Source: Candidatus Ruminococcus avistercoris
Lineage (GTDB): Bacteria > Bacillota > Clostridia > Lachnospirales > Lachnospiraceae
Direction: 5' to 3'
NCBI GenBank assembly: GCA_019120315.1
Contig: DWVJ01000008.1
Coordinates: forward strand, 1-64,000
Length of the DNA stretch: 64,000 bases
This document shows, one piece after another, positions 13,952 to 30,153 of the stretch. The notes below the pieces were generated by a model. That model did no database searches. It was given only the letters and a program-made list of their open reading frames with translations, and was not told where the DNA came from. How positions within the stretch are numbered: position 1 is the first letter of the stretch; every line of letters begins with the position of its first letter. Made by a program: the position numbers and the translations under genes.

Positions 13952-13981
13952 TTGACAAATCAAAAAAAACATCTTTATAAT
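13952..13981 (+). promoter_or_regulatory. Strong promoter for the DtxR-like regulator operon
   Basis: TTGACA at 13952 and TATAAT at 13976 are 18 bases apart, both perfect consensus hexamers. Transcription would begin near 13988, only a few bases before a terminator-like hairpin, so leader control is likely. Confidence 0.75.
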
Positions 13982-13994
13982 ATATTCAAAAAGG

Positions 13995-14019
13995 GCCGCT
14001 TGAAATCAGCGGCTTTTTT
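13995..14019 (+). terminator. Hairpin with T6 tract in the regulator leader
   Basis: GCCGCT pairs with AGCGGC around a seven-base loop and is followed by six T. It could end transcription of the upstream ABC permease, or, because a strong promoter lies just 5' of it, attenuate the regulator operon. The same arrangement recurs before the NEAT-like gene at 16002. Confidence 0.65.
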
Positions 14020-14030
14020 GAACGCTATAG

Positions 14031-14046
14031 GTTAGTTGAAACTAAC
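14031..14046 (+). promoter_or_regulatory. GTTAG-N6-CTAAC palindrome, candidate DtxR-type box (copy 1)
   Basis: GTTAGTTGAAACTAAC is a 7-bp inverted repeat with a two-base centre. It resembles iron/manganese boxes of DtxR/IdeR proteins (TTAGG..CCTAA type). It lies 52 bases before the DtxR-like gene, suggesting autoregulation. A second copy precedes the NEAT-like gene at 16055. Confidence 0.6.
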
Positions 14047-14098: not shown

Positions 14099-14968
14099 AT
14101 GACAACGAAAAAAGAAAAGGAATTTCTGCAGAGTCAGGAGGTGGGGCAAAATGTGGCCTACTCTCAGAAAGAACGGGAAGAAGACGTACTGGAGATTTTA
14201 TATCAGTGGTATCGGGAAGAACATCCGGCAAATTCGGAGAAATTATGCGACAGTCTGGATCTGGGAAGACGGGAGGTGAATGGGCTGCTTCGGAAAATGG
14301 CGCAGCACGGTTATCTGGAAGCCTGGGAACCGGGAGAGGAAATAAAGCTGACGGCTTTTGGAAAGGCTCAGGGGGCGGAGTGTCTGGCAAGACATCAGAG
14401 TCTGACCCAGTTTCTGGAAATGGTCTGCGGCGTGGATGAGAAAACGGCGGAGGAGAACGCCTGCCGCATGGAGCATGTGATCAGTAAGGAGATCGTACAG
14501 GGATTCAGCCGCTTTATCCGATACGGCGATGTGTTTGAGCGAAGTATCCGAAACAGCAATCTGAGATTTCTCTATGAAACCGGGGAATACCGGTTTTATA
14601 TGAGCCTGTATCGCGCCGGCGTCCGATATCCCAGAATTCTGGCGGACGAGACGGAGGATTTTGAAAGCATACTCAGGCTGGAGGTGGGAGAGGAGGCCAG
14701 CAGCTTCTGGCTGAAGAAAAAAAGAAGCGAGAGGGAAAATATCCTCTGGTACTGCAGCCGCAGCGGTTGGAAGCGGGCGGAAGAGAGACAGGGAGAGTAC
14801 CGGCTTCCGACGGAGATCTTTGTATTTTCCTTTGTGCCGGATGATCCCATCATCGAAGGGGAAAGTGTCGTTGCTCTGACCCAGGAAGACAAGACGCTCC
14901 CTTCGGAATCGGATTTCCGGGAAATCAACGTACATATCTGGCAGGAGGGGAATCATGGCACAAGGTGA
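14099..14968 (+). CDS. DtxR-like metal-dependent regulator with C-terminal extension
   Basis: A 289-residue protein. An N-terminal winged helix (about 25-85) is followed by a segment matching the DtxR dimerisation/metal domain: AECLARHQSLTQFLEMVCGV and ENACRMEHVISKEI, including the conserved RH and E..CxxEH pattern. Residues about 140-289 are an unrecognised extension, longer than the SH3-like domain of DtxR. The start is uncertain: ATG 14099 has AGGGGG two to three bases away, while in-frame GTG 14153 follows AGGAGG by 11 bases. It overlaps the next regulator by 14 bases. Expected role: iron- or heme-responsive control of the following uptake genes. Confidence 0.72.
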   Translation: MTTKKEKEFLQSQEVGQNVAYSQKEREEDVLEILYQWYREEHPANSEKLCDSLDLGRREVNGLLRKMAQHGYLEAWEPGEEIKLTAFGKAQGAECLARHQSLTQFLEMVCGVDEKTAEENACRMEHVISKEIVQGFSRFIRYGDVFERSIRNSNLRFLYETGEYRFYMSLYRAGVRYPRILADETEDFESILRLEVGEEASSFWLKKKRSERENILWYCSRSGWKRAEERQGEYRLPTEIFVFSFVPDDPIIEGESVVALTQEDKTLPSESDFREINVHIWQEGNHGTR

Positions 14969-15791
14969 CAATCTGAAACGGGAAAATCTGCCCACCATGC
15001 AGCTGCTGCGCTATCTGACGGAGCTGGAAAAACAGGGGGGAAAGAGAGGGAGCGTAACGGCAGTGGCTAAAGCCTGCGGCGTTCATCACGGCTCTGTCAG
15101 CCGTTATCTGAAAATCTGCTGCGAACTGGGGCATCTGACGGAGGATTATACCTTCACCGAACGGGGGAAAACCTGGCTGGCAGGATATCAGAGACTCCTG
15201 AGTGAACTGCCGGTTTTCCTGCGAAAAGCAGGGGTTCCGGAAAGGGAGATTCCCCAGAATGTGAAAAATCTGATTGAAAACACCGATTATCTGACGCTGA
15301 CAGCCGTTCTGCGCTATGACAGAAACCGTAAAGATGATTTTCAGGGGAAGAACCGTGCAGCAACCAGAAATATTTTAAGCGAAGTACTGGAATACGGTAC
15401 CAGTGAAGTCTTTTTCCTGCTGCTGCGGGTGGAGCACGGGCAGGACGAGCGGGGAATTTCCATGGCGAACAGAGGGTTTCGCAAACCCGGTCTTTTACGC
15501 CACAATAAAAGAGGCAGCTGGCTGGAACTGACCATCTGTGAAATGAGCGCTCATTCCAATATCGACGGGGCGCCCATGGAAGGACACCTTCAAAGTCTGA
15601 AATACGAGCAGGGAGGCGTCCTTCATCTGGCCAGGATAACCGGCGGACGGCTGCGGCTGCCGCTGGAGGCATGTACTTTGCGCAGACGAAGCGGAGGGGG
15701 GATCCGGGGTGAACTGGCGGTAACGGTCACCTGCAATGTGGGACGCGTCCATATGCCGGAGAGCACCGCCATGCTGGTTTTCTGGCTGTGA
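14955..15791 (+). CDS. Second DtxR-like/winged-helix regulator
   Basis: A 278-residue protein translationally coupled to the first regulator (14-base overlap, GGAGGGG before the ATG). Residues 12-75 form a winged helix (RGSVTAVAKACGVHHGSVSRYL, then FTERGKTWLAG). A segment like the DtxR dimerisation region follows (LPVFLRKAGVPEREIPQNVKNLIENT). The C-terminal half (about 130-278) is beta-rich and unrecognised. It has few of the usual metal ligands, so it may be a non-metal paralogue or co-regulator. Being paired with a DtxR-like protein directly before heme uptake genes suggests shared control of that locus. Confidence 0.6.
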   Translation: MAQGDNLKRENLPTMQLLRYLTELEKQGGKRGSVTAVAKACGVHHGSVSRYLKICCELGHLTEDYTFTERGKTWLAGYQRLLSELPVFLRKAGVPEREIPQNVKNLIENTDYLTLTAVLRYDRNRKDDFQGKNRAATRNILSEVLEYGTSEVFFLLLRVEHGQDERGISMANRGFRKPGLLRHNKRGSWLELTICEMSAHSNIDGAPMEGHLQSLKYEQGGVLHLARITGGRLRLPLEACTLRRRSGGGIRGELAVTVTCNVGRVHMPESTAMLVFWL

Positions 15792-15958: not shown

Positions 15959-16001
15959 TGAATCACGAGGTAGCCATAACTAACCAAGCCTTTAGAGATC
16001 G

Positions 16002-16042
16002 AAAAAGCGGTTTTCCGGAGAGAATGTGCACACCGCTTTTTT
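16002..16042 (+). terminator. Terminator-like hairpin in the leader of the NEAT-like gene
   Basis: AAAAAGCGGT (16002-16011) pairs fully with ACCGCTTTTT (16032-16041), a 10-bp stem with a T6 tract. The A-rich 5' arm makes it usable in both directions. It sits between the promoter at 15929 and the GTTAG/CTAAC palindrome, like the hairpin at 13995. It could terminate the regulator operon or attenuate the heme genes. Confidence 0.7.
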
Positions 16043-16054
16043 GAAAAAACAGAA

Positions 16055-16070
16055 GTTAGTGCTAGCTAAC
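16055..16070 (+). promoter_or_regulatory. GTTAG-N6-CTAAC palindrome, candidate DtxR-type box (copy 2)
   Basis: GTTAGTGCTAGCTAAC shares both GTTAG/CTAAC arms and the six-base spacing with copy 1 at 14031. It also follows a hairpin T-tract by 12 bases (11 in copy 1). TTGAAA at 16041 and TAGCTA at 16063 could form a weak promoter that the box would cover. Confidence 0.62.
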
Positions 16071-16151: not shown

Positions 16152-16658
16152 ATGAAATTTAAAAAAGCAGTTGGTCTTGCGACCGCAGCAACCATGATGC
16201 TGGCCATGAGCGCAACAGCATTTGCGGCGGATGGAGATGTGTATGCTAAGTTTTGCAGAGATGGACAAAGTTCGGTTTCCATGATGCAGAAAGTAGTGGA
16301 TGGACCTTGTACTATTACGCAAATCAGCGATAGTTACAGTGAAGTGACAATTCCAGTTACGGAATTTATACATACACAGACGGTCGGGTCAATGACTTTT
16401 ACCGGACAGGGTATGCTGACTGGTTTAGTGATTGACGGTGAAACTTATGATGTGGACTCATTAGGCGATGTGGATGGAGATAATCTGGAAGAAGGTGAAA
16501 TTACCATTGTTCTTCCGAATGAAAAAATAGCAGTTGACAGTGAAACTGTTTTTACTGACGTGACTGCTGAATATGAGATTACAATGGGAAGCGCTCCGGC
16601 AGACATGTCCAGCGAAGCTGATCTGTATTTCTCTTCTGATCTGGCGGCCTTCGAGTAA
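16152..16658 (+). CDS. Small secreted protein, possibly NEAT-like
   Basis: A 168-residue protein with a clear signal peptide (MKFKKAVGLATAATMMLAMSA, cleaved near AFA-AD) and no membrane anchor, so it is probably released. GGAGG lies before the ATG. Residues about 38-65 (SVSMMQKVVDGPCTITQISD) mimic the NEAT pattern: a 3-10 helix with SM, then a GP-T-T strand. The rest is acidic and beta-rich but lacks a clear C-terminal Tyr hairpin. It precedes the giant NEAT receptor, after the candidate DtxR box. It may be a diverged hemophore; the similarity is weak and may be chance. Confidence 0.55.
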   Translation: MKFKKAVGLATAATMMLAMSATAFAADGDVYAKFCRDGQSSVSMMQKVVDGPCTITQISDSYSEVTIPVTEFIHTQTVGSMTFTGQGMLTGLVIDGETYDVDSLGDVDGDNLEEGEITIVLPNEKIAVDSETVFTDVTAEYEITMGSAPADMSSEADLYFSSDLAAFE

Positions 16659-16730: not shown

Positions 16731-19700
16731 ATGAAAAAAATAATGACAGCTGTGGTTTTGCCGGTTTGTATGATTATATTTCTTTTTTGCTGTGTGTCAG
16801 TCGTATATGCTGATGTGGATGAAGTACAGTATACAGAGATGAAAATTGAAGAATACACACCGGAAGTCAGCAGTACCCGGGGAGATCCCCTGGAAAATTT
16901 GAATTTAATCTATGGGCGAGTGATAAAAAATGGAGATAATTATACACTTCAGATGGAGATAGCATACGAAAACTATCGTATATCAAATGAAGATACCACT
17001 TATACGATGACAAGCGTTCTTTCTTATCTGGATGATGCTCAGGAATATCAAGATCTTTTAAAGGATAAACAGTTCCAAGAGTCCGTTTACTGGTCTGGAA
17101 GCGGGGATTCTGTATCTAATGCGGATATTTATACAGTGGAAATTCCGCTTAGTATTTCCGACTTTTCACAAGTGGAAGGACAGAAAGTTCAACTGCAATA
17201 TCAGGGCAGCGGAAGGACTATTTATAATATCACGCTTAGACTGGCAGCGTGTACAGAAGAAAAACCGGCGATTCAGCCATTGGTGATGCCGTATAGTTAT
17301 AATCTGACGTCGAACGAAGAGTATGGCCCCAAACCGGGCAACAGTTCTTCGAACAGGAGTGTAAGTTTGTACATGAGTTACCCGCTGTCGGAAGGAGGAG
17401 CAGTTACATGGTATTATACCACGGGCGAGGAAGATATTACGGAGGAATCCGATTATTTTCAGTCGTATGGCGACGCATCGTACAAATCAGGAACAATTAA
17501 CGCGTCTGGTGAAGAAGCGTATACCATGACGATGCGCATACGGGGACGGTTTCAGAACGGTACCTGGACGGATGAAATTTCCGTACCTCTGAAGTTTTCA
17601 AAGGCGGGAGTCAGTGTTCTGACAGATGAATCTACGGGTGTCCAGATTATCGGGCTGAATAATACGATACCCTATGATACGGAACTGAAAGTGACGCAGG
17701 TTACAGATGAAGACAGCCTGAAAGAAATCAGTCAGATACTGAAAAAGGAAGCAGGAGAAAATTATGGAAAATATAAGCTGTATGACATTTCTTTAAGTGA
17801 TCCGGAAGGAAATCCTGTCGTGCTTTTAAATGAAACCGGTGAATGGGGGGAAGGAATTTATGGCGCAGGTACAAGGGATGCTAAGAAACAGATACAGTTT
17901 AATTTTTCGGATGATGACTTGGCAGATGGATGGCATCCGATGAATTGTCAGATTTATCGGTTAAATGATGATGGCGAGCTGCAGCCTTTGCATATGTATT
18001 CTGTAGTAAATAGCTTTCGATACTGTTATGGAAGCTATTCGGAAAATAAAGATCCAAGCGGAACATATGTATTAATGCAGACGCCTTTGACTGATTTGAC
18101 GGAAGATATATCGGCAGGTAATTACCGTGTGCCTGCGGAGTTTGTAGTTCCGGAAAGGGATGATGACGGTGAGTCTGTTGATCAATGGTTTTCCAGCAAA
18201 TCATCGCTGGATCAGTATCTGGGAGAAAATGCAGAGGCTTTGCTTGCAGTAAGTGAGGAAAATAATCCGTCAGTATATCTGAATTTGTATGGGGTAGACA
18301 ATAAATATCTGACTGCTGTCAGATATGAGGGAAAAAACGCTGAAATAGTAGAGAGGTATAGTTCTACAGAGGAAAAGTACCCCAAAGTTATAAAAATAGA
18401 TCTTTTGGAAAATGATAAGAATTCCGCCTATATTGATCTGCAAGTGAGAGTCAGTGGAGAAAGCGGCTGGCAGGATGTGGTGCTGGCCTTGAATTACAAT
18501 GATCGATATGTGTACAGTGATGGAGTTAAACTTACGGCTCCGGTTATTACAACGGCAACGGGAGCCACTGCCTATGTTAATGAAGATGAAGCTGAGATTT
18601 CCATGCAGTGTGATGCGGTAGACGGGCAGATTTATTATACAACGGACGGAACAGACCCTGTGGCAGAAGAACAATATCTGTATAAGGAGCCATTTACATT
18701 AACGACTGATCTGTCGGACGGACAGACATATCAGATCAAAGCCATTACTGTGAAAGACGGATATACCACATCAAATGTCGCATCTCTGGAGATTGAGTTT
18801 AAGGCGGAAGGCGAGCAGGCAGAAACCGTTCAGGCTCCGGTGATTGATGCCAGATATGACTATGCCTTTGAGGAAAATGGTGACACTGCAGAGACCGGTT
18901 ATTATAATGTAAAACTTTCTACAGACACAGAAGAAGCGACGATATATTATACAGTAGATGGAACTGTACCAACAGAAAACAGCAATCGATATGAAGGTGA
19001 ATTTCGTGTTCCGGCGCTGACAAATGGCAATCCAACCGTAATCCAGAGTTATGCGGTAAAAGACGGATATAATGATTCTTCAACTTCATCCTATACGATC
19101 AGCTTTTCTGATTCCTGGTGGGATAATATGCGGGAAGGAGATTCCTATCAGGTTCCTGTGGATATGATAAATATAGGCATCTGGCAAAATCAGGAAATCA
19201 AAGTAAACTCTATGGGAGCAGACGCATTGAATGGGGATGCTACAGTTTATGTTGAGGATGGTAAAAAATATTTAGAAGTAGCTCTGAAAAGCTTATCTGT
19301 AGGAGGAATACCTGGTTATCTGGTAGGAATGTGGTATTGGGATAATAATGATAACAATACCGGGGATAAAGCGGGGAATTTTAGTACTACAAATACGGAG
19401 GGAGCAATTGAAGCCTCTTATACTTACAACGACGACGGAACGATAGCAACGGCGACCGTTCCCTTGTTCAGTGATTTTGAACAAGTGTTCGTAGGTATTC
19501 AGTCTAATGTCAGCATTATGGGTAAACAGGGAACAATTCTCTGGCTGGATTACAGTGATGTAATTTATCAGATTACCGGTGAGGAGCAGGAAGAGCAGGA
19601 GATAACGGAGACGCCGGTTATTACTTATACATATAATGAGGAAGCAGATTCCTATGAAATAGAGATCACAGCGGAAGAAAATGCAGCGATAGAGTATTCG

Positions 19701-20843
19701 GTAAACGCACAGGAAGGCGAGTTCGAATGGGAGAAATATACCGGAAAATTTACAGTGACCGGTGAAGACGCGCAGGTAAAAGACGGTATTGTAAATATCT
19801 CGGCCAGGGCCACGGCGGAGGATAAAGAGACTTCACAGGTGGCGTTCCAGAAGCTTACCTTTAAAGCTTTTGGGGAGGAAACAACTCTGGAAGACGGAAC
19901 GTACCAGGTTCCGGTAACGTTGATGCAGGCATACAAGGATGAGCCCAGCATGGGCGCGGGAGCTTTGGAAGGAACTGCTCTTGTTACTATTAAGGAAGGA
20001 ACCTCCAGTATTCAGCTTACATTTAAAGGCGTTTCCATCGATGTGGATGGAACAGGAGAGAAATATGGACATCTCCAGCAGCTTTGGAGTTATAAAGAAG
20101 GCAGTACAGTTAAAGATCTGACAGAAGCAAATCGCAGCGAAGTGAAAGTAATTCAAACCTATGAAGATACAGATCTGGCCGGTGGAACGTCTACATTTCC
20201 ACAAATATTTGAACTGAACCGCAGCACGGCAGAGGAAGAAACTATTTATGTTCGTGTGAAAGTAGACGCTATGGGCGATGTGCAGCAGGACGCACGTCTT
20301 GTATTTGATTACACTGAGGCGGTGAAAGCAGAGGAATCGGAGAAAATTCCGGCAGGAAATTATATTGTGCCGGTTCAGATGCGTAAATGGGGATCTGACA
20401 CAGAATTGTCTATGGGAAATGCTGGAATGGAGTCATCAGCTGTTTTGGTTGTGTCAGAAGACGGAACGGCTGTGTTGGAACTTGGATTCCATGCACTTCA
20501 GAATTCTTCACTGACAGGGTATCTTGGCTGGCTCAAGAAAGTGATCAGTGTGGAAGAAGAAAATCAGTATGGTTATCCTGTGAAATATACCACAGAAGAT
20601 GCTGTGGTGTTGGAAGAATGGGATGGCGTGTATGACAATTATAATGATCCGCAGGCAGGAACAGATAGCCAGATGAAAGGGCGGTTGTATCCGAAAACGG
20701 TTTCTATTCCGGTAAAAGTAACGGCCAACGCAGACAGCGAACTCGGATTTGAAACTGAGAATTCTATTTTGATTCAGGTTTATGTACCGGTTATGGAAGC
20801 AATTAATAGGGAAGCGGTACACAGTTTGCTTATCTTGATTTGA
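16731..20843 (+). CDS. Shr-like heme/hemoprotein receptor, N-terminal part (frameshifted)
   Basis: 1370 residues from ATG 16731, beginning with a signal peptide (MKKIMTAVVLPVCMIIFLFC). The N-terminal 550 residues are beta-rich with NEAT-like strands (AGNYRVPAEF). Two chitobiase C-terminal-like (CHB_HEX) repeats follow: YYTTDGTDP near 634 and YYTVDGTVP near 738. Three NEAT domains then show the heme-lip helix: NSMGADAL (~826), PSMGAGAL (~1072), LSMGNAGM (~1226). The last NEAT domain breaks off at EAINRE; its final strand (GSGTQFAYLDLKW) continues in another frame into the next ORF. One missing base near 20807-20809 explains this. Homologues capture heme or hemoglobin at the surface. Confidence 0.85.
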   Translation: MKKIMTAVVLPVCMIIFLFCCVSVVYADVDEVQYTEMKIEEYTPEVSSTRGDPLENLNLIYGRVIKNGDNYTLQMEIAYENYRISNEDTTYTMTSVLSYLDDAQEYQDLLKDKQFQESVYWSGSGDSVSNADIYTVEIPLSISDFSQVEGQKVQLQYQGSGRTIYNITLRLAACTEEKPAIQPLVMPYSYNLTSNEEYGPKPGNSSSNRSVSLYMSYPLSEGGAVTWYYTTGEEDITEESDYFQSYGDASYKSGTINASGEEAYTMTMRIRGRFQNGTWTDEISVPLKFSKAGVSVLTDESTGVQIIGLNNTIPYDTELKVTQVTDEDSLKEISQILKKEAGENYGKYKLYDISLSDPEGNPVVLLNETGEWGEGIYGAGTRDAKKQIQFNFSDDDLADGWHPMNCQIYRLNDDGELQPLHMYSVVNSFRYCYGSYSENKDPSGTYVLMQTPLTDLTEDISAGNYRVPAEFVVPERDDDGESVDQWFSSKSSLDQYLGENAEALLAVSEENNPSVYLNLYGVDNKYLTAVRYEGKNAEIVERYSSTEEKYPKVIKIDLLENDKNSAYIDLQVRVSGESGWQDVVLALNYNDRYVYSDGVKLTAPVITTATGATAYVNEDEAEISMQCDAVDGQIYYTTDGTDPVAEEQYLYKEPFTLTTDLSDGQTYQIKAITVKDGYTTSNVASLEIEFKAEGEQAETVQAPVIDARYDYAFEENGDTAETGYYNVKLSTDTEEATIYYTVDGTVPTENSNRYEGEFRVPALTNGNPTVIQSYAVKDGYNDSSTSSYTISFSDSWWDNMREGDSYQVPVDMINIGIWQNQEIKVNSMGADALNGDATVYVEDGKKYLEVALKSLSVGGIPGYLVGMWYWDNNDNNTGDKAGNFSTTNTEGAIEASYTYNDDGTIATATVPLFSDFEQVFVGIQSNVSIMGKQGTILWLDYSDVIYQITGEEQEEQEITETPVITYTYNEEADSYEIEITAEENAAIEYSVNAQEGEFEWEKYTGKFTVTGEDAQVKDGIVNISARATAEDKETSQVAFQKLTFKAFGEETTLEDGTYQVPVTLMQAYKDEPSMGAGALEGTALVTIKEGTSSIQLTFKGVSIDVDGTGEKYGHLQQLWSYKEGSTVKDLTEANRSEVKVIQTYEDTDLAGGTSTFPQIFELNRSTAEEETIYVRVKVDAMGDVQQDARLVFDYTEAVKAEESEKIPAGNYIVPVQMRKWGSDTELSMGNAGMESSAVLVVSEDGTAVLELGFHALQNSSLTGYLGWLKKVISVEEENQYGYPVKYTTEDAVVLEEWDGVYDNYNDPQAGTDSQMKGRLYPKTVSIPVKVTANADSELGFETENSILIQVYVPVMEAINREAVHSLLILI

Positions 20844-23800
20844 AGTGGGATGAATATACTCCGGTAAGTCCGGATGTGGACAGAAGCAGTCTTCAGGAAA
20901 TGATTAATCAGGCGCAGGAAAAGTTGGACGATGCAGCAGTAAATGCCGATAAATATGATCCCGAAACAGTAGCCGCATTGCAGAAAGCTGTGGCAGATGC
21001 GCTGGCAGTATTACAGAATCCAGAAGCAGATCAGACAGCTGTTGATGAACAGACAGAACTGGTAAAAACGGCTCTGGAAGGTGTGAAATTGAATCTGAAT
21101 CCGGATATTCTTTCCAAACTGATTCAGGAAGCGCAGGCTCTGGATGAAAATCTCTACACACCGGCCAGCTATCAGAAGCTGACAGAGCAGATTGAAGCGG
21201 CCCTGGCATTGCTGGAGAAAGAAGATCTGACACAGGAGCAGATTGAAGCGCAGCTGACCGCACTGAACGCGGCTGTGGAAGGACTGATTGAAAAGGCCGA
21301 TAAGACAAAGCTGCAGGCAAAATATGACGAGGCGGCGGCGATAGAGAACAATAATTATCCAGGCTGGGAGGCGCTTCAGGCAGCCCTTGTCTCTGTGAAG
21401 GAAGTGCTGGAGGATCCCAACGTATCCCAGACGGATGTGGACGGACAGCTGACTCTGCTGCAGAACGCGCTGGACAATCTCTACGGTTCCGTGGATAAGA
21501 GTGAACTTCAGAACCTGGTGGAACAGGCGGATGCCATGGATACATTGGGATATGCAGAAGAAACCACAGCGCTTTTTGAAGCGGCGGTTGCTTCGGCAAA
21601 GAATATTCTGAGCAATGGTGCAGCATCCCAGACGGATGTGGACAAGCATATTCAGCTGCTGGAAAAAACTTCCGCTTCCCTTATCAAAGCAGAGGAAGAG
21701 GGAGTGGTCTATGACGGCATTTATACCATTGACGGGGCTATCATGCATGCCAGCAATGATAATCAGACTTCGATGGGAAATGCAGCGCTGAAAAAACCGA
21801 TGCAGATTATCATGAAAGACGGACAGCCAACGCTTCGGATGGAATTCGGACCGCTGACTACCACCGGCCTGACCGGTTATCTGGGAGAACTGTATTACTT
21901 CCCGGATTATACGGATGCAGAATTGCCGGATGGAAGCCAGGAGAAAGTGTCTGTGAACGTGGAATCGGTTTATGAGGAGGTATATGATTCCTATAATGAT
22001 CCCGAGACGGGAACCGATGCCACCATGAAGGGAAAAGAATATCCCCATTTCGTGACGATGCCGGTGAACTTTGATTACAGCCAGTTCTGGGTGGAAGTAT
22101 ACGTACCGGTGATGGAAAGTATTTCAGCAGGAAGCGGACGTCAGTATGCAAAGCTGACTCTGGACTGGAGTACGCTGACTCAGGTAAGCGGTGTTGAAAC
22201 AGACAAGAAAGACCTTCAGGCACAGATCAGTGCGCTGGAAAAACTGAAAGAGCAGCTGGGTGATCAAAATCCGCAGGAAGGAGCCCTGACGGCGGCAGAC
22301 TTTACTCAGGAAGAGTTAAATGTCCTGGAAGCAGCCATTGTGGCCGGAAAATATGTGGATAACAGTCTGAACGTGGAACAGATTGCGGTGGACGCCATGA
22401 CGGAATCTCTGACGGCAGTTTATCATCTTTTCAGCCAGGAAGCTGTGGAAGTGGATAAGAGTGAGCTGGCGAAAGCCATTGAAGTGGCGGACAGCTATCT
22501 GAACCGTGACGATGTGGTTTATACGGAAGCTACAAGACAGATTCTTCAGGCAGCCAGAGATGAGGCGGCCAGGGTCTATGAAGACGAAGAGGCTACCCAG
22601 ACCCAGGTAAACAGATGCGTAAGGGCGATCGATGAAGCTATCCAGGGACTGGAAATCGTGGGAGCTGTAAAGACAGATCTGAAGACGGCGCTGGAAAACG
22701 CTTATGCGTGTCTCAACGATGCGGACAGTTATACAGCGGCAGCGCTGGAAACTCTGCGGACGTTGTATGATGAGGCGCTGACAGTTTATGAAAATGAGAA
22801 TGCCAGTCAGGAGGAAGTGGATGCCCAGGTAAGAATTCTCACCTATGCAGTTAACAACCTGAAGAGAGTGGATGAGGTCGCCGTGAACAGACAGGGACTT
22901 CACGAGATGATCGTAGCGGCCTCCAACATGGCCGGAAGAGAACATCTCTACACAGCTGAGTCAATTAAAGCCCTGAAAGCGGCTATTAAGGCAGCGGAAG
23001 CAGTTTACAATGACGAAGAAGCAACGCAGGAAGAGATCAATGCCCAGGCATCAGCGCTGGCCATGGCCATGCTGGATCTGGAAGGAAAGACCTCTGTGGT
23101 GAATCCTGACCCGGAAACGCCGGGCGGAGATGAAAAACCGAATGACGGAGAGGGAGATAACAAACCGGGCGATACCACCCTGGATTACAGGAATCTAAAG
23201 GACGGTGTGTATTCCATCAACGGCGAGATGGTGAAGATTGACAAGGAGACTTACTCCATGTCCAACGAAGCCATTAACCACACGATCAAACTGACGGTGA
23301 AGGACGGAAAATATTACCTCACCATGAACTTCAACGGTCTTAAGATCAACAGTCAGTTCGGGTATCTGGGAACGCTGAAATATTTCCTGACCGGATATAC
23401 CATTGATCAGTACGGCGCGCCTCAGGGCAGTCTGGCGGACGTAACGGTAGATTCCTATCAGACGGATGAGAGCGGAAACCGTATCACAGACAGTTTCGGC
23501 ACAGACTATCCGGATTATGTAACCTTTGAACTGATTCCGGAAGCGCTGGAAGACGGTTACGTGCCGCTGCAGGTGTTTGTTCCAATCATGGAATCCATCG
23601 CTGCGGGCACAGGAACCCAGCCCGTATTCCTGAGACTTGACTGGAGCACCATCGAAAGCGCCGATGCCGATGATCCTTCTTTTGAGGATGATGGAAACAA
23701 TGATGACACCGACCTAAACGGTGGTTCTAATTTAAGCGGTGGCTCCAATTTAAGCGGCGGCTCCGGTTTAACCAGCGGTTCCGGATTAAGCGGCAGCGGA

Positions 23801-24022
23801 AGCAGCTTAAAGAGCGGCAGTTCCGGTCTGAGCGGCAGCTCGGGACTGAGCAGCGGCACTTCCGGTACAGGTTCTTCTTTGAAAGCTTCCAGTGTGAAAA
23901 CCGGGGACGAGACGCCGGTGGGAGCGTTGGCCGGACTGACGGCTCTGGCTTTTGGAGCGGCAGCTTTAGCTCTTTATATGAAACGAAGTGAAAGAGATGG
24001 CCATAAGGCGGAAAGGAAATAA
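20840..24022 (+). CDS. Shr-like heme receptor, C-terminal part with FIVAR and NEAT domains
   Basis: 1060 residues that continue the preceding protein; the nominal TTG start has no ribosome binding site, and in-frame residues upstream (TQFAYLD) complete a NEAT domain. Order: about four FIVAR helical repeats (10-280), a NEAT domain (TSMGNAALKK near 310, YAKLTLDW near 430), about four more FIVAR repeats (450-755), a Pro/Gly/Asp linker, and a NEAT domain (YSMSNEAINH near 805, ending in VFLRLDW). A Ser/Gly-rich stalk follows, with a SVKTGD sorting-like motif, a membrane helix and a basic tail. Joined, the receptor would have about 2,430 residues and five NEAT domains, anchored at the surface and wall-spanning. 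Confidence 0.87.
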   Translation: MKWDEYTPVSPDVDRSSLQEMINQAQEKLDDAAVNADKYDPETVAALQKAVADALAVLQNPEADQTAVDEQTELVKTALEGVKLNLNPDILSKLIQEAQALDENLYTPASYQKLTEQIEAALALLEKEDLTQEQIEAQLTALNAAVEGLIEKADKTKLQAKYDEAAAIENNNYPGWEALQAALVSVKEVLEDPNVSQTDVDGQLTLLQNALDNLYGSVDKSELQNLVEQADAMDTLGYAEETTALFEAAVASAKNILSNGAASQTDVDKHIQLLEKTSASLIKAEEEGVVYDGIYTIDGAIMHASNDNQTSMGNAALKKPMQIIMKDGQPTLRMEFGPLTTTGLTGYLGELYYFPDYTDAELPDGSQEKVSVNVESVYEEVYDSYNDPETGTDATMKGKEYPHFVTMPVNFDYSQFWVEVYVPVMESISAGSGRQYAKLTLDWSTLTQVSGVETDKKDLQAQISALEKLKEQLGDQNPQEGALTAADFTQEELNVLEAAIVAGKYVDNSLNVEQIAVDAMTESLTAVYHLFSQEAVEVDKSELAKAIEVADSYLNRDDVVYTEATRQILQAARDEAARVYEDEEATQTQVNRCVRAIDEAIQGLEIVGAVKTDLKTALENAYACLNDADSYTAAALETLRTLYDEALTVYENENASQEEVDAQVRILTYAVNNLKRVDEVAVNRQGLHEMIVAASNMAGREHLYTAESIKALKAAIKAAEAVYNDEEATQEEINAQASALAMAMLDLEGKTSVVNPDPETPGGDEKPNDGEGDNKPGDTTLDYRNLKDGVYSINGEMVKIDKETYSMSNEAINHTIKLTVKDGKYYLTMNFNGLKINSQFGYLGTLKYFLTGYTIDQYGAPQGSLADVTVDSYQTDESGNRITDSFGTDYPDYVTFELIPEALEDGYVPLQVFVPIMESIAAGTGTQPVFLRLDWSTIESADADDPSFEDDGNNDDTDLNGGSNLSGGSNLSGGSGLTSGSGLSGSGSSLKSGSSGLSGSSGLSSGTSGTGSSLKASSVKTGDETPVGALAGLTALAFGAAALALYMKRSERDGHKAERK

Positions 24023-24023
24023 G

Positions 24024-25079
24024 ATGAAGGCGAAGGGAAAAAGAAAAGCATTCCTCGCCGGACTTTTAAGCATGATGCTTGCCCTCTTTTGGGGGGCAGG
24101 CATTCCTGCTGTTCCGGTATGGGCGGAATCGGGGACGGTGTACACCTGTGCCATCCATCCCTGCTATGCCCATCCGGTGACCGGCGAGATCGAAGATTCC
24201 GGCGGCGAGGCTTCCTATGCCACAGGACAGGGTATGGTGGAGGGGGCCGTATATACCACCGGTATTCTGGAACTGACGGATTCCGGAGGATATTATCTGA
24301 CGATCCGCATGAGTCTGATGGATTATACCTCCGGGCACAGTTTCTGGGTGCAGAATGTGGGAGATTCCGGCTGGGCCACTCCTGCGGTGGGCGTCACCGG
24401 AAACGGCTCGGACAGCAATGGAACTACGGCGGATATCTGTATTCAGGTACCCAGTGAAAACTGCGTGGTGCGGGGCAGCATGTATGTGGATCCCATGGGA
24501 AGGGACGTGGTGTTTTACCTCTATCCCAGCGATTTTTCCCAGGGAAATAATACGGATATGAACGCCACCATGGTGACTGCCGCCGCAGGCAGTGATGCGG
24601 CGGCAGCCTCCGGGAGCACAGCGGCGGCGGAATCTTCTTCCGCCGGTACATCTGCTCAAAGCAGCGAGGCGGCACAGCTGCAGTCCCAGACAGCGGAAAC
24701 CACGCCCGCTCCGACAGCAGAAGCGCTGGAGAGCGAAGCGGCGACTCCAACGCCGACGGCTGCTCCCGAATCAGAGGAACAGGAAGAGCCGGCTATGGAG
24801 CTGGAGAGCAGTATCGAGGCTGCGGCCACGCCACAGCCGGAAGTTTCCACTGATGAGACGCTCAGCGATGCTCAGGGATTAAGTCTTTCCACGCAAGGGG
24901 AGGCTGCGGCCGGCGAACTGGGAGAGAGCATCGGGCAGGCGCTGGTCAGTTATCTGTTTATCGCCGGGGCAGTATTTGTCCTGGGAGGTCTGATTCTGCT
25001 GGGAGCGGCTGCGGGGATCGTATATTTCTTCCGCAAAAACTGGAGACGATGGGGCGGTGGTGAAGATGATGAAGATTAG
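24024..25079 (+). CDS. shp: Membrane-anchored heme-binding Shp-domain protein
   Basis: A 351-residue protein: signal peptide 1-34 (VPVWA-ES), then a Shp domain (36-185) with motifs close to streptococcal Shp: HPVTGEIEDSGGE, GQGMVEG and YYLTIRMSLMDY. Shp holds heme between two Met residues, and Met residues are present in these segments. A Thr/Glu/Pro/Ala linker (about 186-300), a membrane helix (about 312-336) and a charged tail follow. I start at ATG 24024, one base after the receptor stop, with GGAAAGGAA before it. Known role: accepting heme from the NEAT receptor and passing it to the ABC lipoprotein. It overlaps the next gene. Confidence 0.9.
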   Translation: MKAKGKRKAFLAGLLSMMLALFWGAGIPAVPVWAESGTVYTCAIHPCYAHPVTGEIEDSGGEASYATGQGMVEGAVYTTGILELTDSGGYYLTIRMSLMDYTSGHSFWVQNVGDSGWATPAVGVTGNGSDSNGTTADICIQVPSENCVVRGSMYVDPMGRDVVFYLYPSDFSQGNNTDMNATMVTAAAGSDAAAASGSTAAAESSSAGTSAQSSEAAQLQSQTAETTPAPTAEALESEAATPTPTAAPESEEQEEPAMELESSIEAAATPQPEVSTDETLSDAQGLSLSTQGEAAAGELGESIGQALVSYLFIAGAVFVLGGLILLGAAAGIVYFFRKNWRRWGGGEDDED

Positions 25080-26196
25080 GAAAATCCTGTATGTGCTTTC
25101 CATCGTCGCGGCGCTGGCGCTGCTTTGTCTGACGATGGGAGGCTGTGTCAATCAGGATCCGGAAGGGGAAGCAAAGGAGTCGTCTGAAGAGACAGATGAC
25201 TCGGCCGGGGAGGAGCAGACGGCCAGCAGTCTGCTGCAGATCACCGATCCGCAGGAAAAAGCGGCGGTGGAAGCGGCTGCGGCCAGGGTAGAGGCTATGG
25301 ATTCTGCTCCCAGGATCATTGCTACTTCGGCGGCCACGGCGGACATCTGTGACCGTCTGGATCTGGATCTGGTGGGGATCTGTAAAACCACCATATCGGA
25401 AGTGCCGGAACGATACGCGGATCTGCCCCAGGTGGGGACGGCCATGGCGCCGGATATGGAGATCGTTTCTTCTCTGGATCCTGACTGGATCTTAAGCCCT
25501 TCCTCCCTGCAGTCGGATCAGCAGCCCAAATATGAAGCCATCGATACGGACTGGGCTTTTTTGAATCTGCGCAGCGTGCAGGGGATGTACCGTTCGATTC
25601 AGGAACTGGGAGAGATTTTTGACCGGCAGGCGCAGGCGCAGGAGCTGGTAGATGAGTTCACGGAGTTTTATGAAGAGTATAAGGGTAAAAATGAAGGGAA
25701 AGAATCTCCCAAAGTGCTGGTGCTGATGGGACTTCCCGGTTCTTATATCATCGCCACGGAAAATTCTTATGTGGGAAGTCTGGTGGAGCTGGCCGGCGGG
25801 GAAAATGTCTATGCCGGGACGAACCAGGAATTTCTCACAGTGAACACGGAGGATATGAAGACGAAGGAGCCGGATGTGATCCTGCGCGCGGCCCATGCGC
25901 TGCCGGATCAGGTGGTGGAGATGTTCCAGGAAGATTTTGAAACCAATGATATCTGGAAACATTTCGATGCGGTGCAGGAGGGAAGGGTCTATGACCTGAC
26001 ATATGAACTGTTCGGCATGAGCGCAACCTTCCGTTATCCGGAGGCGCTGGAGGAACTGCAGCCCATGCTGTACCCGGAAAGCGAGGAGGATGTCTCCCGG
26101 GCGAAGGAGAACAGTGAAAAGGCAACAGAGGCGGCTGAAGATTCCAAGGCCACAGAAAAAACCGATGAGGAAACACTGAAAGAAGCTACAAAGTAG
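25066..26196 (+). CDS. Heme ABC transporter substrate-binding lipoprotein (HtsA/IsdE-like)
   Basis: A 376-residue lipoprotein. The signal helix ends in the lipobox TMGGC (Cys27). A class III periplasmic-binding fold follows, with the long helix typical of heme and siderophore binders. AMAPDMEIVSSLDPDW places a Met (~127) where HtsA/IsdE have their axial Met, and ILRAAHALPDQV places a His (~277) where they have the axial His, supporting heme as ligand. A Lys/Glu-rich C-terminal tail is extra. The start overlaps the Shp gene by 14 bases; ATG 25069 is also possible. Confidence 0.88.
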   Translation: MMKIRKILYVLSIVAALALLCLTMGGCVNQDPEGEAKESSEETDDSAGEEQTASSLLQITDPQEKAAVEAAAARVEAMDSAPRIIATSAATADICDRLDLDLVGICKTTISEVPERYADLPQVGTAMAPDMEIVSSLDPDWILSPSSLQSDQQPKYEAIDTDWAFLNLRSVQGMYRSIQELGEIFDRQAQAQELVDEFTEFYEEYKGKNEGKESPKVLVLMGLPGSYIIATENSYVGSLVELAGGENVYAGTNQEFLTVNTEDMKTKEPDVILRAAHALPDQVVEMFQEDFETNDIWKHFDAVQEGRVYDLTYELFGMSATFRYPEALEELQPMLYPESEEDVSRAKENSEKATEAAEDSKATEKTDEETLKEATK

Positions 26197-26209: not shown

Positions 26210-27238
26210 ATGGAATTACAGGAAAAAGATCAGGATATAGTACGGAAAAGAAAGAAAAGGCTGCGGGCGGTTCTCTCCTTTGTGATCATGGCTTTCCTGC
26301 TGTGTGTGCTTTTTTTCGCGGCGGTGAATATCGGAAGCCTGAAGGTGAGTCTGACTCAGTTATGGGAGGGGCTGTTTGTGGAATATAACGACGATGTGGC
26401 GACGATCTTTGATCTTCGTTTCCCGCGTATTATCATTTCCATGCTGGCAGGAGCAGCCATCGCCGTATCCGGCGTTCTTTTCCAGGCAGTGCTGAAGAAT
26501 CCTCTGGCGGATCCGGAGATCATCGGAATCTCCAGCGGAGCCAGTTTTGCGGCGGTGCTGATCACCGCTTTTGCCCCCATGCTGTTTTTCTTCACGCCTC
26601 TGTTTGCCTTTCTGGGCGGAGTGCTGGCTTTCTTTCTGGTCTACACACTGTCCTGGAAGGGGGGCTTAAGCCCTCTTCGCATCATTCTGGTGGGCGTGGC
26701 GGTAAACGCCATGTTCAGCGGGCTGTCCAGCGCGCTGAATTCCATGAGCGGCGGCAGCATGTCGGGGGTGGCCTCCATCGTCAACGGCAATATCACCATG
26801 AAAACCTGGGACGATGTAAAGACGCTGGTGCCCTATGTCATCGTGGGATTGATACTGGCGCTGTTTTTTACAGGAAAGTGTAACCTGTTGTCGCTGGAGG
26901 ACAAGACGGCCAGGGGGCTGGGGGTCAATGTCAACACCATGCGGATTCTTATTTCCCTGACGGCAGTCCTGCTGGCAGGCATTTCCACGGCCGTGGCCGG
27001 AGCCATCAGTTTTCTGGGGCTGATCGTACCACATATTGGACGGATTCTGGTGGGAAGCGATCACAAGGCGCTGATCCCCTTTTCCATGCTGTCCGGGGCC
27101 TTTACTTTTTTGCTGGCGGATACCATTGGCAGGACCATCGCGGCGCCCTATGAGGTGTCGGCCTCCATTATCATGAGCGTGGTGGGCGGTCCCTTCTTTA
27201 TCATTCTGCTGAGGAGGTCGAAGAAATATGCAAACTGA
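26210..27238 (+). CDS. FecCD/BtuC-family heme ABC permease
   Basis: A 342-residue permease with about ten helices. Family motifs are visible: LRFPRIIISMLAGAAIAVSG, LADPEIIGISSGASFAAV, and SFLGLIVPHIGRILVG near the ATPase-contact loop. AAAGGGGGAAG precedes the ATG. It lies between the heme-type lipoprotein and the ATPase and overlaps the latter by 11 bases, so the three form one importer. Substrate heme is inferred from the Shp and NEAT neighbours; the permease itself cannot distinguish heme from siderophores or cobalamin. Confidence 0.92.
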   Translation: MELQEKDQDIVRKRKKRLRAVLSFVIMAFLLCVLFFAAVNIGSLKVSLTQLWEGLFVEYNDDVATIFDLRFPRIIISMLAGAAIAVSGVLFQAVLKNPLADPEIIGISSGASFAAVLITAFAPMLFFFTPLFAFLGGVLAFFLVYTLSWKGGLSPLRIILVGVAVNAMFSGLSSALNSMSGGSMSGVASIVNGNITMKTWDDVKTLVPYVIVGLILALFFTGKCNLLSLEDKTARGLGVNVNTMRILISLTAVLLAGISTAVAGAISFLGLIVPHIGRILVGSDHKALIPFSMLSGAFTFLLADTIGRTIAAPYEVSASIIMSVVGGPFFIILLRRSKKYAN

Positions 27239-28010
27239 AAACAAACCTGCCATGGAGGTGAAAAACCTTTCTTTTGCCTACGGAAAGAACCGGGTGCTGA
27301 AGGATATCTCCTTCCGGATTAAAGAGGGGGATATCACCACCATCATGGGAGCCAACGGCTGTGGAAAAACCACGCTGTTTTCTCTGATGACCAGGAATCT
27401 TTACCCCCGCAGGGGTGACATCTTTCTCAAAGGGAAGAATATCCAGAATCTGGGACTGAAGGAATTTGCCAGGAGGGTTTCCATCGTCCATCAGTACAAT
27501 ACCTCCAGCGACGATATTACCGTGGAGCGTCTGGTATCCTTTGGACGTACGCCCCACATGAAGATGATGCGGGGAAGAAGCGAGGAGGATGAACGGCTGA
27601 TCCGATGGGCCATGGAGGTGACCAATGTGGAGAAATACCGGGACCGGGAGATCTCCCGGCTCTCCGGCGGTCAGCGCCAGCGGGTGTGGATTGCCATGGC
27701 GCTGGCGCAGAATACGAAGATCCTGTTTCTGGACGAGCCTACCACCTATCTGGATATCCGGTATCAGATTGAGATTCTGGAGCTGGTGAAAAAGCTGAAC
27801 CGGGAGTTTGGGATCACCATCATCATGGTGCTCCACGATATTAATCAGGCCATTTATTTTTCTGACTGTGTGATCGGACTGAAGGACGGGCTGGTGGAGA
27901 TGGAAGGGGATCCCCAGGAGGTGATCACCCGGGAAAGTATCCGTTCTTTGTATGGGATTGAACTGGATGTGACGGTGATAGGTGAGAAAAAATTTGTATT
28001 GACAGTGTGA
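27228..28010 (+). CDS. Heme ABC importer ATP-binding protein
   Basis: A 260-residue ATPase of the FecE/BtuD type: Walker A GANGCGKTT, signature LSGGQRQRVWIAMAL, Walker B ILFLDEPTTYLD and switch His in VLHDINQA. The short C-terminal strand region (ELDVTVIGEKKFVLTV) is usual for this group. AGGAGG precedes the ATG and overlaps the end of the permease gene. It energises import by the FecCD permease. Confidence 0.93.
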   Translation: MQTENKPAMEVKNLSFAYGKNRVLKDISFRIKEGDITTIMGANGCGKTTLFSLMTRNLYPRRGDIFLKGKNIQNLGLKEFARRVSIVHQYNTSSDDITVERLVSFGRTPHMKMMRGRSEEDERLIRWAMEVTNVEKYRDREISRLSGGQRQRVWIAMALAQNTKILFLDEPTTYLDIRYQIEILELVKKLNREFGITIIMVLHDINQAIYFSDCVIGLKDGLVEMEGDPQEVITRESIRSLYGIELDVTVIGEKKFVLTV

Positions 28011-28028: not shown

Positions 28029-28424
28029 GTGAAAAAACAACCATTACGGATTTTCTGGCTGCTGCTGGGATGTCTCTGTCTGGGGCTGGGGACCCTGGGA
28101 GTGATTCTGCCCATTTTACCCACGGTGCCTTTTTTCATGGCGACGGTGTTTTGCTTTGCCAAAAGTTCCCGCAGGCTCCATGACTGGTTTCTGGGGACAA
28201 AGCTTTACAAAAAGCACCTGGAAAGCTTTGTCCGGCAGAAGGCCATGACTTTAAAGACCAAGTGTTCCATCGTGGGAACGGTGACGGCGGTGATGGCGGC
28301 AGCCTTTGTCATGATGCGGGACGTGCCTGTGGGACGGATCTGCCTGGCAGCGGTGTGGGTCTGCCATGTGCTTTACTTTTTCCTGCGGGTAAAAACAGTC
28401 AAAAAAGAGGAAGCTTATGATTAA
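28029..28424 (+). CDS. DUF454 (YbaN-like) inner membrane protein
   Basis: A 131-residue membrane protein with the DUF454 motif [26 protein letters not shown] and three to four helices. The function is unknown, but DUF454 genes are often found with heme uptake or heme-degradation genes in Firmicutes. I start at GTG 28029, nine bases after GGGGAGG; TTG 28023 is too close to that site. It overlaps the next ABC exporter by 8 bases, so it belongs to the heme operon. Confidence 0.82.
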
Positions 28425-30153
28425 AAAAAGACTGATCGGGCTTTTGGCCCACGGGAAAAAATATATTGTGTTCCAGGTGTTGTGGCAGTGGTTTGCGCTG
28501 CTGTGTCAGGTGCTGATCATCTATGCTGTGGCCATGACGCTGGACGGAGCCGTTTTCGGCACGCTGACAGAAAGGCGGCTGGCCATTTACGCATGTCTGG
28601 GAGCAGGAGGAATGGCGCTGCGTTTTTTCTGTGACCGGCAGGCGGCGCAGGCTTCTTTTGCGGCCAGCATGGATGTGAAACGGATCCTGAGGGAGCAGAT
28701 TTACCGAAAGCTCCTGCGGCTGGGGGCTTCTTACCGGGAAGGGGTATCTACTTCGGAAGTGGTGCAGATGGCGGCCGAAGGAGTGGAACAGCTGGAAACG
28801 TATTTCGGGAAATATCTGCCCCAGCTGTTCTACAGTCTGGCGGCGCCGGTGACACTGTTTGTAATCCTTTCCTTTGTCAACTGGCAGGCAAGTCTGGTGC
28901 TGCTGGTTTGTGTGCCGCTGATACCGGTATCCATCGTGGCGGTACAGAAAATAGCCGGGAGACTTCTGAAACGGTATTGGGGAATTTACACAGAACTGGG
29001 GGACAGCTTTCTGGAAAATCTTCAGGGTCTGACCACGCTGAAGATATACCAGTGTGACGGCATCCGGGCCCGGAAGATGGACGAGGAGGCGCAAAGGTTC
29101 CGGCAGATCACCATGAAGGTGCTGATGATGCAGCTGAATTCCACCAGTGTGATGGATATCATCGCCTATGGCGGAGCAGCGGCGGGCATGATCGTCACCG
29201 TCTGCCAGTTTTGCGCCGGCCATGTGGGATTAGGAGGCGCACTGATGCTGATTTTGCTGGCGTCGGAGTTTTTCATCCCCCTGCGGCTGCTGGGTTCCTT
29301 TTTCCATATCGCCATGAATGGCATGGCGGCCAGCGACAGGATTTTCGCACTGTTGGATCTCCCGGAACCGCAGGAACAGGAAGGAAAGATTCAGGAGGAG
29401 CGGGTGAACATTACTATGTTCAAAGTCCGGTTTTCCTATGAACCGGACCGGGAGATTCTGAAAGGAATTCACATGAATTTTCCGGCAGGCAGCTTTACTT
29501 CTCTGGTGGGGCTGTCCGGCAGCGGAAAGAGTACAGTGGCGGGATTGCTCACAGGCAGAAACAAAGGATATGAAGGAAGTATCACGGCGGCAGGGATGGA
29601 ACTGTCCCGGGTGTCGGAGGCCAGTCTGATGGATACAGTGACTATGGTCAGCCATAACAGTTATCTGTTTAAAGGCACGGTGGAGGAAAATCTGCGGATG
29701 GGAAAAGAGAATGCTTCTGATGAGGAGCTGGAGGAAGTACTGAGGGAAGTGCGCCTTTATGATTTTCTGCACAGCCGGCAGGGACTTGGGACAGCAGTGG
29801 CGGAAAGAGGAGAGAATTTCTCAGGCGGCCAGCGTCAGCGGCTGGCGCTGGCCCGGGCGCTGCTGCACGACACACCGGTGTATATCTTTGACGAAGCTAC
29901 CTCCAATATCGATATGGAGAGCGAAGAGATGATCATGGATGTGATTCATCGTCTGGCCAAAAAGAAGACGGTGATTCTGATTTCTCACCGTCTGGCCAAT
30001 GTGGTGAAATCAGACCGGATTTATCTGCTGGAACAGGGCAAGGTCGTTCAGTGGGGAAACCATGACGCTCTGATGGCGCAGGAAGGCCCCTATCGGGAGC
30101 TGTTTCAACATCAGCAGGAGCTGGAAAATTATGGAAGGAGGGGGAGAGTATGA
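28417..30153 (+). CDS. ABC exporter half-transporter, CydD-like
   Basis: A 578-residue fused permease-ATPase. Six helices (about 15-320) precede an ATPase with Walker [10 protein letters not shown], signature [16 protein letters not shown], Walker [11 protein letters not shown] and switch His in ISHRLANV. It forms a heterodimer with the next gene (4-base overlap). CydDC-type exporters move thiols such as glutathione or cysteine and affect heme and cytochrome assembly. The locus context suggests a heme-, porphyrin- or thiol-linked role, which is inference. The frame is intact. Confidence 0.82.

Follow-up and report, generated by a model that had tools for sequence, protein, structure and literature searches.

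Ahead of a heme-uptake operon in Candidatus Ruminococcus avistercoris lie two overlapping genes for DtxR-like regulators, here called P1 and P2, which raise the question of what such a pair senses and how it acts on the genes that follow. The window analyzed comprises 64,000 nt of contig DWVJ01000008.1 (GCA_019120315.1, positions 1-64,000, forward strand), and its features are listed in Table 1. Both ORFs are intact and co-directional with a 14-nt overlap, each has a strong Shine-Dalgarno sequence in front of it, and no membrane segment was detected in either product (maximum KD 1.03). The first-pass annotation had described tandem, coupled DtxR-like genes whose products share a winged helix and a DtxR-like dimerisation segment. 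Both parts of this description hold: the ORF layout is joined by family and profile matches, and the DtxR/MntR winged helix with its helical dimerisation domain is present in both proteins, recognized in P1 by Pfam and PDB searches and in P2 by its family profile.

Table 1. Coordinates of the features discussed (positions in the window unless a locus is given)
Feature	Position	Strand	Remarks
Sigma-70-type promoter, TTGACA-18-TATAAT	13952..13981	+	12/12 matches
Terminator-like hairpin with T6 tract	13986..14022	+	Between promoter and operator; fold -16.1 kcal/mol, z -3.35
Putative operator GTTAGttgaaaCTAAC upstream of the pair	14031..14046	.	Perfect GTTAG-N6-CTAAC palindrome
P1	14099..14968	+	289 aa; DtxR-type regulator, metal site kept, C-terminal putative degenerate NEAT-like domain
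P1 dimerisation and metal-binding domain	14351..14524	+	Residues 85-142; ligands H99, C122, E125, H126
P1 C-terminal beta domain	14540..14947	+	Homologous to P2 NEAT domain, without SMA lip
P2	14955..15791	+	278 aa; winged helix, metal-free DtxR-like dimerisation segment, predicted NEAT domain
P2 NEAT domain (predicted)	15369..15788	+	Residues 139-278; profile, profile-profile, AF2/Foldseek
SMAN heme-lip (3-10 helix) motif	15459..15470	+	In P2; SM in 79/79 homologues
HMPES motif, predicted beta7-beta8 hairpin	15750..15764	+	In P2; candidate heme-iron ligand site
Putative operator variant GGTAGccataaCTAAC upstream of the heme operon	15969..15984	.	One mismatch
Terminator-like hairpin with T6	16000..16044	+	Between two operators; fold -15 kcal/mol, z -2.4
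Putative operator GTTAGtgctagCTAAC upstream of the heme-uptake operon	16055..16070	.	Perfect GTTAG-N6-CTAAC palindrome
Small exported protein	16152..16658	+	May contain an SM-type NEAT-like stretch; by itself matches no family or PDB entry
Large surface protein, NEAT domains	16731..20843	+	Pfam NEAT 2.1e-10
Surface protein, NEAT and FIVAR domains	20840..24022	+	Pfam NEAT 1.9e-21
Shp-type cell-surface heme-binding protein	24021..25079	+	Pfam HemeBinding_Shp 6.1e-60
IsdE, heme ABC transporter lipoprotein	25057..26196	+	TIGR03659 2e-119, above cut-off
FecCD-type permease	26210..27238	+	Pfam 5.7e-91
ABC ATPase of importer	27228..28010	+	Position and sequence
Two fused ABC half-transporters, CydD/CydC-like	28417..31847	+	Recurrent beside HTH-NEAT genes
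Further boxes, same genome	L126:3670; L127:4076 and 4133; L128:3864		Before feoAB, flavodoxin-containing operon, transporter pair

In its N-terminal half, P1 matches Pfam Fe_dep_repr_C (6.7e-12) and, by sequence, MntR/DtxR structures; a profile search against the PDB returns DtxR/MntR at 5e-17, and the Foldseek list is dominated by DtxR/MntR structures, with an rmsd of 1.5-2 to MntR. Two metal ligands, D29 and E32, come from the winged helix and join H99, C122, E125 and H126. The cysteine ligand occupies the position of DtxR C102 and MntR E99, which points to iron as the metal of P1. Searched as a single sequence against Pfam, NCBIfam and the PDB, P2 yielded weak generic HTH or winged-helix matches and nothing convincing. 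A family profile of 10 homologues matches MntR over residues 27-127 (2.6e-8), one of 79 homologues reaches MntR in the PDB at 2e-12, and Foldseek with the AF2 model finds MntR at 1.9e-4 for the non-NEAT half. When P1 and P2-type proteins are aligned jointly, 32 of 35 P1 proteins carry the full D-E-H-C-E-H metal set as against 0 of 79 P2-type proteins, in agreement with the earlier impression that the second protein lacks metal ligands. To judge by its sequence, P2 is a DtxR relative and not a metal-sensing DtxR. The same alignment reveals a conserved recognition helix of the (V/I)SR type in P2 and no conserved one in P1.

The C-terminal halves had been called unrecognised and novel, a view that did not survive the use of family profiles, which place them as belonging to or derived from the NEAT family; single-sequence searches had missed this. 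The SH3-like/FeoA domain that ends long DtxR members was not found in P1 or P2. Pfam NEAT is matched singly by 38 of the 79 P2-type members, and because the window's own P2 is not among them, its assignment rests on the family. The C-terminus of the P2 family aligns with the NEAT domains of surface proteins from these loci at an hhalign probability of 97.5% (E 4.8e-12), whereas controls that were column-shuffled or reversed did not exceed 1.4%, and an HMM made from surface NEAT proteins only, with no regulators, matches most regulators at residues ~140-220. Against IsdX1 NEAT structures the P2 profile scores 5e-4 with 10 homologues and 4e-5 (to 3sik) with 79. Structure prediction, which the first-pass annotation had proposed as a check, was run on both proteins: the P2 model (pLDDT 80.6; pTM 0.49, so that domain placement is not settled by the model) has NEAT structures as its best PDB matches in Foldseek (4h8q, 5.7e-5, prob 1.00). 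From sequence and model together, the C-terminal half of P2 is a NEAT domain, predicted to bind heme. The C-terminus of P1 aligns with the P2 family (hhalign 97.9%, E 4.2e-13) and reaches surface NEAT domains directly at 5% only, so its link holds solely through P2; the P1 model (pLDDT 86.1) has a strand order similar to that of P2. This P1 domain is probably a degenerate relative of the NEAT domain.

Residue conservation divides the two C-termini in turn. All 79 P2-type proteins have the SM lip, mostly in the form SMA, and no P1 of the joint alignment does; HMPES is near-invariant among P2-type proteins, and these two motifs belong to the most strongly conserved stretches of the family. NEAT domains carry a heme-ligating tyrosine in the beta7-beta8 hairpin region. 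The classical ligand motif of beta8, (S/Y)xxxY, is absent in P2, with HMPES in its place. Of 144 NEAT domains on surface proteins of these loci, 15 have YxxxY and 78 a P-x-M motif in the hairpin region, and a 2021 review (PMC7815599) notes NEAT domains that use other axial ligands. Since P1 keeps the metal ligands and has lost the SMA lip, while P2 shows the reverse, P1 looks like an iron sensor and P2 like a heme sensor. The suggestion that the pair responds to a second ligand such as heme thereby gains a concrete basis in the NEAT domain of P2.

The collection of relatives drew on 98 related genomes and on GTDB species genomes, the latter giving 80 loci; once duplicates were removed, 84 loci were left. 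Thirty-eight of these loci hold a pair, in which P1 always (38/38) immediately precedes a co-directional P2, and 46 hold a solo P2-like protein; P1 without P2 was not found among the 84 loci. HTH-NEAT proteins, paired or solo, are spread across Clostridia, the GTDB-derived loci including Lachnospiraceae (Blautia, Coprococcus, Hespellia, Mediterraneibacter), Pseudoflavonifractor, Merdimmobilis and Thomasclavelia. In a tree of the DtxR-like part, P1, paired P2 and most solo proteins group separately, and paired P2 form one clade (support 100); the deep forks are without resolution because few columns are available. The solo proteins have no metal site at all, which leaves the NEAT domain as their only visible sensor. 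Tandem pairs of other kinds suggest repeated duplication: two solo-type HTH-NEAT genes stand in tandem at L110:6557-8217, and a different degenerate partner precedes the HTH-NEAT gene at L118:5979-7780.

A complete NEAT/Shp/IsdE heme-uptake operon lies downstream of the P1-P2 pair in the window. Heme-uptake or exporter genes are present in 75 of the 84 loci, and eight of the nine loci without such genes are retrieved stretches of <10 kb. Among 196 genomes of the order, IsdE was found above the cut-off in 7 of the 8 genomes with the regulator, as compared to 4 of the 188 without (Fisher 1.3e-9). Single-NEAT proteins of similar size occupy the position of the 16152-16658 gene in other loci, and the small exported protein encoded here, directly behind the operator, may therefore be a minimal hemophore. 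Separately, a CydDC-like ABC half-transporter pair adjoins HTH-NEAT genes in 37 of the 84 loci, often behind an iron box of its own; the pair at 28417-31847 may move heme or a siderophore.

These data bear on whether the NEAT domains sense anything. If they no longer bind heme and serve for dimerisation or as a scaffold only, the system would be an ordinary iron-dependent repressor, with P1 as the Fe(II) sensor and P2 as the DNA-binding partner. Such a function would suit a NEAT-like domain that P1 retains despite the loss of its heme lip, the missing (S/Y)xxxY motif and the sharing of the iron box with feoAB (see below). We nevertheless consider it unlikely in view of the universal SM lip and near-invariant HMPES of P2-type proteins, the solo proteins whose NEAT domain is the sole candidate sensor, and the strict link to heme-uptake genes.

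Our preferred reading is that P1 and P2 probably act in the cytoplasm as a pair of repressors that sense iron and heme and control the downstream heme-uptake operon. Each subunit joins a NEAT-type domain to a DtxR/MntR-type module for DNA binding and dimerisation. P1 would serve as the iron sensor, with its Fe(II)-type metal site kept and its heme lip and conserved recognition helix lost; P2 would be the heme sensor and main DNA reader, with the SMAN lip, HMPES and (V/I)SR-type helix kept and the metal ligands lost. Most likely the two would form a heterodimer through their DtxR-type dimerisation segments and, when internal iron and/or heme is high, bind GTTAG-N6-CTAAC before their own genes and before the NEAT/Shp/IsdE operon. 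The bound pair would then stop transcription, partly by halting RNA polymerase at the intrinsic terminator just upstream of the box.

A heterodimer is not the only arrangement in which P2 could sense heme and P1 iron, as two separate homodimers might act on the same boxes. Solo HTH-NEAT proteins without a P1 partner, present in 46 loci, imply that P2-type proteins can probably homodimerise. For the pair itself, two homodimers seem improbable to us: P1 would have to read DNA without a conserved recognition helix and P2 would act without a metal site, and the loci contain no P1 that stands apart from P2.

The GTTAG/CTAAC boxes at 14031 and 16055, to which the pair had been predicted to bind, are supported as operators by their conservation. 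They are the only two exact GTTAG-N6-CTAAC sequences in the window. Across 1.05 Mb of loci, we counted 117 exact boxes at spacer 6 versus 0-3 at each other spacer from 0 to 13. The boxes lie mostly a few tens of nucleotides from NEAT, regulator or exporter genes, and those that could be assigned to a gene precede NEAT (42), P2-type (25), exporter (12), P1 (7) and Shp (2) genes. The same genome also carries the box before feoAB, before a flavodoxin-containing operon and before an ABC transporter pair; it is found in 89 of 98 related genomes, where a spacer-7 control is far rarer, and 5 of 13 standalone DtxR genes have it nearby. By this pattern, the box is a general iron box, marking a DtxR-type iron regulon of Lachnospirales, and the idea that it is specific to heme loci was rejected. 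Binding there need therefore not be specific to the P1-P2 pair, and a standalone DtxR (L129) could be the binder. It could then be that boxes 14031 and 16055 are housekeeping DtxR sites only and that the pair binds elsewhere or is a heme-dependent co-regulator or activator, for which the wide occurrence of the palindrome speaks. This reading we regard as doubtful, given the very high box density directly before HTH-NEAT genes and their NEAT neighbours and the DtxR-like recognition helix core kept in P2.

The order of elements in front of the pair, a 12/12 promoter followed by a hairpin and then box 14031, is repeated at many related loci. Among the 72 heme-locus boxes (L032-L119), 40 have a hairpin and T-run before the box in gene orientation, versus 2 on the mirrored side (Fisher 4e-13); at other iron boxes the count is 8 of 50 (Fisher 1e-5 against the heme loci). 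The T-run starts at -18 to -11 from the box, in 31 cases at -16 to -14, and of 32 strictly defined sites, 15 have a promoter-like match ahead of the hairpin. In the second common layout, the box directly follows a TATAAT. Rfam detected no known riboswitch or leader RNA. A hidden promoter at the box of terminator-type sites was considered as well and is unsupported, with no fixed -10 there and the promoter-like matches before the hairpin in 15/32. The sites form a composite terminator-operator element with an intrinsic terminator ~15 nt before the box. Any single site is more simply read as a bidirectional terminator belonging to the upstream gene, yet this leaves the fixed terminator-box spacing unexplained. 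The spacing suggests instead that a bound repressor may stop polymerase in the U-tract, as a repressor-clamped terminator. As in transcriptional roadblocking by CcpA, CodY, PurR and LexA (review PMC10310618), a regulator bound to DNA downstream of a promoter could here stop RNA polymerase; what differs is the constant distance of ~15 nt that separates the box from an intrinsic terminator before it.

Each of these modules is known, and it is their combination and complementary split that are new, as far as we found in the open-access literature. MntR, DtxR and IdeR (PF01325, PF02742) share with P1 and P2 the winged helix and helical dimerisation domain, with P1 the ligand set, and with the box a DtxR-like palindrome. 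They differ in carrying an SH3-like/FeoA C-terminal domain or nothing where P1 and P2 have NEAT-type domains, in the absence of a metal site from P2 and the solo proteins, and in the P1-P2 tandem with its complementary loss. To the NEAT domains of Isd systems (PF05031; IsdX1, IsdX2, IsdC, Hbp2, IsdH), P2 is similar in its predicted beta-sandwich, its SMA lip and its adjoining Shp/IsdE heme-uptake genes, and it is homologous to the operon's own surface NEAT domains. Unlike them, it has no signal peptide or anchor, is fused to a DNA-binding module, and its beta7-beta8 hairpin carries HMPES in place of (S/Y)xxxY. Bacterial heme-responsive regulators such as HrtR, PefR, HatR, HsmR, Irr and HssRS/HrrSA belong to the TetR, MarR, Fur or two-component families. 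They resemble the P1-P2 pair in its proposed role of coupling heme level to heme-handling genes, and to our knowledge none of them uses a NEAT domain.

Within the open-access literature, we found no NEAT transcription factors, heme-responsive DtxR proteins or roadblock-assisted terminators. The terms helix-turn, transcription, cytoplasm, DNA-binding and regulator are all absent from the main text of a 2014 NEAT survey (PMC4143258), and the passages searched in the 2021 review (PMC7815599) make no mention of a transcription factor. NEAT domains have been described as heme carriers that sit at the cell surface or are secreted. We tentatively propose, at somewhat less than even confidence, a widespread and undescribed class of transcription factors that read heme by an intracellular NEAT domain, with iron (P1) and heme (P2) sensing split in the Lachnospiraceae within a dual-input repressor that partly clamps polymerase at a terminator fixed ~15 nt before its operator. 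If true, sensing heme directly at heme-uptake promoters, through a DNA-binding protein with a NEAT domain in the cytoplasm, would be new for bacteria and would explain the control of NEAT/Isd-type heme uptake in many gut Clostridia. The P1-P2 pair would offer a clean natural case of metal and heme sensing divided between two proteins, and the constant distance between terminator and operator allows a direct test of repressor-assisted intrinsic termination.

Two further ORFs of the window have unusual products. The 453-aa protein encoded at 33980-35341 has a C-terminal part that is a run of near-identical repeats (ADAREEGREAGRSETMNGLQEMI), and the 819-aa protein encoded at 35533-37992 appears by eye to be a single chain in which two methyltransferases flank a deacylase/carboxypeptidase-like middle.
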